Assembly (NCBI GenBank): GCA_040752595.1
Contig: JBFMGX010000032.1
Coordinates: 1-64,000 of the forward strand
Length of the DNA: 64,000 bases
Origin: Candidatus Zixiibacteriota bacterium
GTDB taxonomy: Bacteria; Zixibacteria; MSB-5A5; WJJR01
Direction of reading: 5' to 3'
This document shows positions 2,546 to 6,329 of this stretch, one piece after another. Below the pieces are notes generated by a model. That model was given only the letters and a program-made list of their open reading frames with translations, was not told the DNA's origin and did no database searches. Position 1 is the first letter of the stretch. Each line of letters begins with the position of its first letter. The translations under genes and the position numbers were made by a program.

Positions 2546-2609
2546 GACAATGTCCTGCAACCGCAGAGGCGGTATTGCGTAACTTGTCCGGGGGATGGAT
2601 CGGACCGTG

Positions 2610-3695
2610 ATGACACCTCATCGCCACAACCTATCGGCCGCCTTCCTGGGTATCGCGTGGGCAACAATCGTCCTGGGTGCAGGCGCGACAGAACCGTCGG
2701 CCCAAGTCGTCAAGATTCAGAAGCTGGGGGGCGGACGATTCATGTCCGAAAGCGTCCAGCAGATTCCCGTGCCGGGGATATCCAAGCTGCACCTGATTGG
2801 GTCGTCCAATCTCGGCGGAACGGTCACTCTGACTACGCGGCCGGTGGATTCGGTTCGCGTGGAGCTGGTCAAGGTCTTCCGCGTTCCCTCGGCCGACATG
2901 GCATACGATTGGGAGCGTCTGATCGCCTGCGATCTCGTGCTCTCGGATTCGATTCTGACGATCGACCTGAAGGCCCAAAGCAATGCCCCCTGGCAGGGGA
3001 GCGAGTGGTCCGCGCGTGCGGAAGTGACGGTCACCATTCCACCGGACTGGGACATCAATGTCGGCGCCCGGTTCTTCGAATTTGATCTGGCCGGACCGTT
3101 CGGCGCCGCCGTTGTCGACACCGAGTTCGGCCGTGTCAAGTTGCAGAGAGTGACCCGACGAACATCGGTGACCGGGTCGTACACCGCCATCGAGCTGGCC
3201 GAGGTACGCGGTGAAATCAGCGCCCAGACCAGCTATGCCGATTTGGAAGTCCGTGGCGCGATTTCCGCCGCCGAAAGGGCCGCGCGCCTCGTCAACACGT
3301 CGGGGTCGATTTCGGTGCGTGGTCTGGCCGGCGCCGTCGACGTTGAGACCGAGAATGCCCCCGTTACGCTGTCCGATCTGGTGCTGGTGGGATCGGAGTC
3401 CTCGCTGCGCGGGTCCAATGCCCCAATCGAGGCCGAGATCATCGAATTCGGTGATGCCCAGTTGGAAGTCCGCAACGGCAACGCGCCGGTCAGTCTGAAG
3501 GTGCCGCGCTCACTGTCGGCGCGGCTGAATCTTGTGGTCGGCATCGGGGGGCGAATCCACACCGAGGGGCTGATTGTCCAGACTCACCCCAATCAATTGC
3601 GGACGGGTCGCTTGGAAGGTGTCTGTGGCTCCGGTCAGGGCCTAATCGACGTCGACGTCAGTGGCTTCGGCCGGATCGACCTGACCGGGCGATAG
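2610..3695 (+). CDS. Exported DUF4097-like beta-helix protein
   Basis: The 361-residue protein starts with a signal peptide (MTPHRHNLSAAFLGIAWATI, then VLGAGA). The rest is rich in short beta repeats such as TSGSISVRGLAGAVDVETEN and GSNAPIEAEIIEFGDAQLEV. This repeat pattern of alternating S/N-A-P turns and V/I/L strands is typical of DUF4097 'putative adhesin' proteins, which form a beta-helix at the cell surface or periplasm. The function is unknown. An ATG 15 bp upstream (2595) is possible but has its purine run too close; 2610 has GGATCGG about 6 bp upstream. It lies between the RNA methylase and the SppA gene on the same strand. Confidence 0.75.
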   Translation: MTPHRHNLSAAFLGIAWATIVLGAGATEPSAQVVKIQKLGGGRFMSESVQQIPVPGISKLHLIGSSNLGGTVTLTTRPVDSVRVELVKVFRVPSADMAYDWERLIACDLVLSDSILTIDLKAQSNAPWQGSEWSARAEVTVTIPPDWDINVGARFFEFDLAGPFGAAVVDTEFGRVKLQRVTRRTSVTGSYTAIELAEVRGEISAQTSYADLEVRGAISAAERAARLVNTSGSISVRGLAGAVDVETENAPVTLSDLVLVGSESSLRGSNAPIEAEIIEFGDAQLEVRNGNAPVSLKVPRSLSARLNLVVGIGGRIHTEGLIVQTHPNQLRTGRLEGVCGSGQGLIDVDVSGFGRIDLTGR

Positions 3696-3851: not shown

Positions 3852-6329
3852 ATGAATGTCGGTGGGCACGGTACCATGACCGAGGCGCGGCGGTCGCGGC
3901 GCCTCGTGTGTTGGTGCTTCGCGGCCGTGGTCCTTTGGCCGGGATGTTGTGCGATGGCCGGTGAGCTCTTCCCCCGCGACCGCGTGCTGTTGCCGTTCAC
4001 GCCGGCGGCGATGGCACAGGGACCTTCGGCTTTGCGATTCAATCCGTCGGCGCTGGGGTCAGATCCCGAGTTCGCCCTGGATTACTATCATACATATTCA
4101 GATTCCTCATTCCATGGCAATGACGCGCTCTATGCCGCGCTGCGCGGCATCGGCGTGGCGATCGAATGGTATGGCGCCGACCGGACCCCGGCCGGGCATT
4201 CCTACACCATCGGGTTGGCGACATCCGCCGAGCGGGCGCTGGCCCTGGGATCGTCGTACCAGTGGCGGTCATCGGACGATCCGGTCCAGGACAAGTCGCA
4301 TTTCTGGTCGCACGGCCTCTGGTGGCGGCCGAACAACCGCTTGGCCCTCGCGGTCGTGGTCGACAACTACAATCGCATGAAGGTGCACGGCGAACGCTCC
4401 GATGCGCGGTTTGCCTATTCAGCGGCATGGCGGTTTCTGGACCGACGGTTGACCGTGGGCGGCGATTGGTATCAGCAGACGTCGGAGGCGTTGTTTGACG
4501 GCACCTATCGTGTCGGCGCCGCCTGGGAGGTGACCGATGGCCTGACGCTCTATGCCGATGTCGGCCGGGATCGGAGCTACTCGCTGGGCGGACGTCTGAA
4601 CCTGACGAGTTTCCTCACCGGATCGCACGCGACCTTTGACCGTCACGATGGCTGGCGCGGTGGTGTGGCCTGTGCGGGAATCCGTTCCCAGCGGCAGCGC
4701 CCGCTGGTCCACGTCCGCCGCGAAGTCGTCCATCTGGATCTGACCGGCGCGATTCCCGATCGCCGACCGCCCCGACTCCTCTTTGGTCGGACCCCGTATA
4801 CGACATGGGATTGGATCGATATGCTGGGCAAGGCGGAGACCGATCCATCCATCCGCGCTGTTGTTCTTCGCATCCAGGATCCCGAACTGGGTTGGGCACG
4901 CCGGCGGGAGTTGCGTCAGGCGCTGGCCCGTGTGCGCGCCGCGGGGAAATTCACGGTGGCCTATTGTGACGGCAACATCACGAACAGTGAATACTATCTG
5001 GCGACGGCCGCGGACCGCATCGTCGTTCCTCCGGTCTCCACGGTCGATCTGGTCGGGCTCAAGTCCGAAGTGGTCTTTGCGACGCGTCTGCTCGGCAAGC
5101 TTGGTATCGTCGCCGACCTGGAACACGTCGGCGAGTACAAGACCGCATCCGACCTGTTGACGCGGACGGACATGTCCCCGGCCCACCGTGAGGCACTCAA
5201 TGCACTGCTGGACGATCTCGATTCGTGCTGGGTCGCGGAGATGGCACAGTCGCGCGGTGTGAGCAGCGAACGGGTGCGCGCGTGGATCGATCACGGACCG
5301 TACGTCTCGGTCGATGCCCGTGGCGCGGGGCTGATCGACGAGGTGATCTATGCCGACCGTCTGGACAGCCTCGTGCGCGCATGCGCCGGTCCGGTCTGGG
5401 GGCACGTTACGCAGGCACAGTTGGCGGGCCGACATTATGCGACGTCAGCGTGGACCCATCCGCGGGTTGCGGTGGTTTTCGCCTCCGGCTCCATGGTCGA
5501 AGGGGTCGACGGCACCGCGCCGCTCTGGGGCGATGTCATGGGGGAACGGACGATCGTTCAGGCGATTCGCCGTGCCGCCGCCGACCGCCGCGTCAAGGCG
5601 ATCGTGCTGCGCATCGATTCGGGCGGCGGGTCGATCTTTGCCGCCGATGCCATCTGGCGTGAAGTGGCGCAGGCCAGAGCGAAGAAACCGGTGGTGGTGT
5701 CATTGGCCGACGTGGCAGCCTCCGGGGGATACTACATCGCCTGTGCCGCCGATTCGATCTTCGCGCAGCCGAACACCATCACCGGATCGATCGGTGTGAT
5801 CGCCGGCAAACTGGATCTCTCGGGGCTGTACGACAAGGCGGGTCTGGATCGTGAGGTCCTGACGCGGGGGCCTTACGCCGCGATGTACAGCGCCGGTCGC
5901 GCGTTCGACTCGACCGAACGCGTCGTCGTCCGCGATCAGATGCTGAGGGCGTATGGGCGCTTCGTCTCCATCGTGGCTGCCGGGAGACATCTCGCCGAGG
6001 ACTCGGTGGACGCGATCGGGCAGGGACGGGTCTGGTCCGGAACCGCGGCGTGTGGCCGGGGACTGGTGGATCGCCATGCCGACCTGCGTGAGGTCATCGC
6101 GGTGGCGGCCCGTATGGGAAGAATCGAGTCTGGTGACGCGATCGGCATCCAACTGCTGCCTCGGCCCGAATGGCGTCTGTTTGATGCCGGTCCGCTCGCG
6201 CAGACCAATGGGCTTGGGTCGATGGGCGGGTTCCTGCGGTCTGCGCTCGGCTCGTTCCCGCTGACCTCGTGGATTGCGAGTGATGCCAATGTGCGGTATG
6301 AACTGCCGTACTCCATCACGGTGCGCTGA
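3852..6329 (+). CDS. sppA: SppA signal peptide peptidase with N-terminal barrel-like domain
   Basis: The 825-residue protein has a signal sequence (about residues 15-36, ending GCCAMAGE). Next comes a roughly 250-residue region of amphipathic strands rich in aromatic residues (DYYHTYSDSS, SYQWRSSDDP, GLWWRPNNRLALAVVVDNY) that resembles an outer-membrane beta-barrel. Two S49 peptidase repeats follow from about residue 290. The catalytic pair of long SppA enzymes is present: Lys430 in GEYKTASD and Ser624 in DVAASGGYY, 194 residues apart (200 in E. coli SppA). The usual SPGG oxyanion motif reads SGGG. SppA cleaves leftover signal peptides in the membrane; the barrel-like half is not part of known SppA. 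The ATG at 3852 is chosen because AGGAGGGG lies directly upstream. Confidence 0.88.
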   Translation: MNVGGHGTMTEARRSRRLVCWCFAAVVLWPGCCAMAGELFPRDRVLLPFTPAAMAQGPSALRFNPSALGSDPEFALDYYHTYSDSSFHGNDALYAALRGIGVAIEWYGADRTPAGHSYTIGLATSAERALALGSSYQWRSSDDPVQDKSHFWSHGLWWRPNNRLALAVVVDNYNRMKVHGERSDARFAYSAAWRFLDRRLTVGGDWYQQTSEALFDGTYRVGAAWEVTDGLTLYADVGRDRSYSLGGRLNLTSFLTGSHATFDRHDGWRGGVACAGIRSQRQRPLVHVRREVVHLDLTGAIPDRRPPRLLFGRTPYTTWDWIDMLGKAETDPSIRAVVLRIQDPELGWARRRELRQALARVRAAGKFTVAYCDGNITNSEYYLATAADRIVVPPVSTVDLVGLKSEVVFATRLLGKLGIVADLEHVGEYKTASDLLTRTDMSPAHREALNALLDDLDSCWVAEMAQSRGVSSERVRAWIDHGPYVSVDARGAGLIDEVIYADRLDSLVRACAGPVWGHVTQAQLAGRHYATSAWTHPRVAVVFASGSMVEGVDGTAPLWGDVMGERTIVQAIRRAAADRRVKAIVLRIDSGGGSIFAADAIWREVAQARAKKPVVVSLADVAASGGYYIACAADSIFAQPNTITGSIGVIAGKLDLSGLYDKAGLDREVLTRGPYAAMYSAGRAFDSTERVVVRDQMLRAYGRFVSIVAAGRHLAEDSVDAIGQGRVWSGTAACGRGLVDRHADLREVIAVAARMGRIESGDAIGIQLLPRPEWRLFDAGPLAQTNGLGSMGGFLRSALGSFPLTSWIASDANVRYELPYSITVR

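Follow-up and report, generated by a model that had tools for sequence, protein, structure and literature searches.

In Zixibacteria, an SppA peptidase is joined in a single reading frame to a domain predicted to fold as a 14-stranded outer-membrane barrel, and this barrel is likely to shift the anchoring of SppA from the inner membrane to the outer one, where the enzyme would clear peptides. The gene (3852-6329, + strand) lies in the window, the 64,000-nucleotide stretch analysed here, which belongs to a Zixibacteria genome assembled in 50 contigs (2.94 Mb). It begins with an ATG at 3852, immediately preceded by an AGGAGG-like ribosome-binding sequence, ends with a stop codon at 6327-6329, and encodes 825 amino acids without an internal stop. 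The signal peptide (residues 1-36; 3852-3959, +), with a hydropathy peak of 2.0 at residues 18-36, is of the Sec type by its sequence, having an arginine-rich start, a hydrophobic core and a predicted cleavage site AMA|GE before G37. It is followed by an N-terminal hatch (residues 37-74; 3960-4073, +), recognized by helices in the model and invariant columns, including Asn64-Pro65 of an NPA/NPAGL motif, then by the barrel (residues 75-278; 4074-4685, +), a linker of 12 residues delimited by the strands of the model (4686-4721, +), the tandem S49 domain (residues 291-775; 4722-6176, +), and a C-terminal tail (6177-6326, +) of low model confidence. The tail ends in a conserved P-Y/F-x-I-x-I motif, which was considered as a strand closing the barrel and rejected, since the tail is unstructured in the model and the same ending occurs in unfused SppA of Acidobacteria and Planctomycetes.

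The earlier note had proposed that both S49 domains are present, with Lys430 and Ser624 at the normal spacing, and this is borne out by two Pfam matches and by alignment to the E. coli SppA structure. Peptidase_S49 (PF01343) matches two stretches (E 4.5e-65), one of them residues 607-753, and the protein scores above the NCBIfam cutoff for SppA_dom (232 bits vs 155) and slightly below that for SppA_67K (296.4 bits, cutoff 311.45). E. coli SppA (protease IV, 67K; PDB 3bez/3bf0) aligns with residues 318-759 (E 4e-54), and the whole-protein model matches 3bez with a TM-score of 0.87 normalised to the target (Foldseek). In this alignment the catalytic Lys430 (codon 5139-5141, +) and the nucleophile Ser624 (codon 5721-5723, +) pair with chain positions 184 and 384; these correspond, at a constant offset of 25, to K209 and S409, which we take to be the numbering of the E. 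coli dyad. Both residues are invariant among 28 fusion proteins. The lysine lies in the N-terminal half of the tandem and the serine in the C-terminal half, as in SppA 67K. The fusion shares with the E. coli enzyme a Ser-Lys dyad split between two S49 halves and, by the topology predicted below, a periplasmic catalytic part. The genome encodes a second S49 protein, a 300-residue SppA with an N-terminal membrane helix, and no further S49 protein.

Evidence for the barrel comes from structure prediction, profile comparison and strand composition. AlphaFold2, supplied with 28 natural sequences, models the whole protein with 14 strands ahead of the S49 fold (pLDDT 85.6, pTM 0.83), and the N-domain modelled alone gives the same 14 strands behind a helical hatch (pLDDT 90.0, pTM 0.86), a high-confidence barrel of the outer-membrane type. 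A Foldseek search with the whole protein places E. coli SppA first, other SppA structures next, and then PorV (6h3i_F) and OmpG, while the 50 matches listed for the barrel alone are all outer-membrane or mitochondrial barrels, Omp33 and FadL included; among the matches listed, PorV of the type IX secretion system (T9SS) covers the barrel best (TMq 0.71). By HHalign, the N-domain is related to PorV-like proteins of related genomes with a probability of 94.1% (E 1.3e-7, 191 collinear columns, the alignment beginning near the NPA motif), against 0.1% for a control comparison with S49. The alternating hydrophobicity of the strands is 1.18, compared with 0.55 +/- 0.10 for shuffled strands, and none of 5000 shuffles is as high. 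The curated models Toluene_X, PorV and PorV_fam (Pfam/NCBIfam) recognize no N-domain above cutoff and match weakly in single members only, and a sequence-only search of solved structures with the N-domain returned nothing credible. The host genome itself contains some 14 PorV-family matches. A 14-stranded barrel of the FadL/PorV superfamily with a hatch is thus a well-supported prediction, and the suggestion of a strand-rich, barrel-like domain reaching residue 290 holds with its end moved slightly forward, to about residue 278. The label 'porin-type' fits as far as the barrel is of the outer-membrane type, the prediction being of a small FadL/PorV-superfamily barrel and not of a general porin.

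The fusion barrel resembles PorV (PDB 6h3i, 8gl6) and the PorV/PorQ family in its 14 strands, N-terminal hatch and NPAG-type motif, and differs in being only ~240 residues long, compared with ~370-400 for PorV, in its short outer loops, and in being joined to a peptidase. With BamG and FadL it shares the 14-stranded FadL-superfamily fold, BamG representing scaffold use within an outer-membrane machine; unlike the fusion, both stand alone without a peptidase domain.

The predicted topology places the peptidase on the periplasmic side of the outer membrane. The loops after strands 1, 3, 5, 7 and 9 have 7-14 residues and the turns after strands 2, 4, 6, 8, 10 and 12 have 2-5 residues. Because short turns alternate with longer loops in this way, both ends of the barrel are predicted to be periplasmic, and the peptidase would therefore be periplasmic too. 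Two locations had been put forward for the fusion, peptidase activity at the outer membrane and a link from membrane to membrane. The predicted barrel favours the former, and the latter, a bridge between the membranes, is not supported, no inner-membrane helix being predicted: no 19-residue stretch after the signal peptide exceeds 1.48 on the Kyte-Doolittle scale. The host genome encodes Omp85 proteins, so the cell should be able to insert barrels. Together these predictions suggest that the peptidase probably acts directly beneath the outer membrane.

In E. coli, SppA forms a tetramer in the inner membrane, where it breaks down released signal peptides; a single N-terminal helix fixes it to that membrane (PMC9360617). 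The predicted outer-membrane barrel occurs in place of this helix. Unfused SppA proteins have a short N-terminus, in many of them with a membrane helix right before the first LxLxGxIPE strand; since that helix directly precedes the same strand that follows the barrel in the fusion, the barrel occupies the helix position. Two genomes (G007 and G008) encode barrel and peptidase as two adjoining or overlapping genes, a naturally occurring separation that speaks for the two parts working together.

In the preferred mechanism, the FadL/PorV-superfamily barrel would thus substitute for the usual inner-membrane helix of SppA. The protein would be exported by Sec, and BAM would insert its barrel into the outer membrane. 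The peptidase would then be suspended from the last barrel strand in the periplasm, close against the inner surface of that membrane, and most likely assembled like E. coli SppA. There it may cleave peptides or unfolded segments that gather at the outer membrane, such as released propeptides or stalled products of secretion and assembly, although the substrates named here are a guess; the genome's other, short SppA with its helix anchor would cover the inner membrane. Flavobacterium columnare without its ordinary 589-residue SppA shows a 3.8-fold increase in vesicle output and no gliding (PMC13236525). These effects on the outer membrane and gliding, together with the use of FadL-type barrels as scaffolds, make an outer-membrane role for the fusion plausible.

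A first alternative, which we regard as unlikely, is that the barrel docks the peptidase on BAM or on a type IX-like translocon, in the manner of BamG or PorV, where it would clip substrates or remove those that have stalled. PorV is the best-covering solved fold among the Foldseek matches listed, BamG, a 14-stranded FadL homologue, is integral to the Bacteroidota BAM complex (PMC12578637, PMC12611786), and the F. columnare phenotype also agrees with this alternative. Against it, the fusion loci showed no conserved association with genes for BAM or secretion. The neighbourhoods in spirochaetes gave no functional hint.

The Zixibacteria neighbourhoods contain other genes in recurrent positions. 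Upstream of the fusion in the window lies a gene for an exported 'toastrack' (DUF4097-like) protein (2595-3695, +), and of 21 Zixibacteria loci, 15 have a tblastn match to it ahead of the fusion. Pfam finds nothing in the protein encoded in the window and recognizes DUF4097 only in the homologue at locus L130 (E 6e-10). In most Zixibacteria, the fusion comes after the toastrack gene and a gene identified by sequence as a SpoU/TrmH-type methyltransferase; the toastrack is not obligatory, being missing at some loci (e.g. L038 and L040). Four genomes (G074, G090, G091 and G094; loci L125, L127, L129 and L130) carry after the toastrack a stand-alone barrel of this family (274-280 amino acids). In three of them (L125, L127 and L130) one or two genes for M16-type peptidases come next, an assignment confirmed by Pfam for both genes in G090 and at L125, and a diverged barrel-S49 fusion lies elsewhere. 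Because both the S49 fusion and this barrel/M16 slot occur, the barrel family has more than one kind of partnership with peptidases. A patatin-like gene also lies near the stand-alone barrel at L125, L127 and L130. Elsewhere in Zixibacteria, proteins of ~610 amino acids (L128:2069-3895 and L131:2302-4131) with a PorV-like barrel represent another barrel fusion, C-terminal TPR repeats being confirmed in the L128 protein.

This repeated association of barrels with peptidases, and the presence of transporters such as FadL in the superfamily, would suit a second alternative, in which the barrel is a working channel with the peptidase at its periplasmic mouth, degradation being linked either to product export or to the import of external peptides. 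We hold it to be rather improbable, since PorV and BamG are FadL-type barrels that serve as scaffolds without a transport role (PMC12578637), and since the hatch may plug the pore. A more specific form, a degrade-and-export device in which an SppA chamber sits beneath an outer-membrane pore of its own, cleaves periplasmic peptides and lets the fragments out, as part of a wider Zixibacteria family of barrels with peptidases (the S49 fusion, and barrels beside M16 pairs), seems more doubtful still. That the N-domain is instead a soluble β-rich domain would accord with its failure to reach any curated barrel-family cutoff, and is very improbable in view of the two concordant AlphaFold2 models, the membrane barrels that make up its best Foldseek matches listed, its profile homology to PorV, and a strand amphipathicity beyond that of 5000 shuffles.

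The fusion recurs well outside the window, in related genomes of the kind that the earlier note had advised searching, and extends from Zixibacteria to Spirochaetota and Poribacteria. A scan of genome contigs with a single-protein query found nothing, and an alignment-based query found the relatives. An initial search showed the full-length fusion as a single frame in 47 of 58 relatives. Counting frames of at least 700 amino acids with the barrel at their head, the S49 domain being directly confirmed in part of them, 73 of 83 near-complete Zixibacteria genomes are positive. Seven spirochaete MAGs and one Poribacteria MAG (L052) have the fusion, and in a sample of 60 Spirochaetota, 15 show a one-frame match that spans both the barrel and the S49 domains. 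A search of plasmid proteins for the fusion gave no match. The merging of two genes through sequencing or assembly error, which the existence of two separate genes in two relatives might suggest, is refuted as an explanation by this recurrence of the identical single frame in all three groups, the frame in the window being open throughout, with no stop or frameshift hidden between the halves as the earlier note had cautioned there might be. Two genomes of the same class, both from one genus and 93-99% complete (G016 and G030), lack the fusion and keep the short SppA.

In an S49 tree, every fused protein lies on one side of a single branch (support 96/90). Two apparently plain sequences inside this group have simple explanations, one (L054) being cut by a contig end, and the other (L053) having a broken frame with the barrel just upstream. 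This arrangement agrees with a single origin of the fusion and does not prove it, the tree being rooted for drawing only. The S49 part is split into shorter frames at L053 and at L124 (G077), through decay or sequencing error.

SppA and the FadL-type barrel are each known, and their combination was not found described: a search limited to open-licence PMC papers, which is weak evidence of absence, returned no published account of an SppA-barrel fusion. SppA is usually regarded as an enzyme of the inner membrane that deals with spent signal peptides. If the barrel anchors it as we infer, this phylum-wide form, apparently of single origin, would mean that in much of the diderm bacteria peptide clearance is organised at the outer membrane as well, and a peptidase would be added to the roles that FadL-type barrels are known to play as scaffolds, as in PorV and BamG. 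The natural exchange of one anchor for another, together with the naturally split versions, would thus provide a tool for asking where SppA acts and on which substrates.
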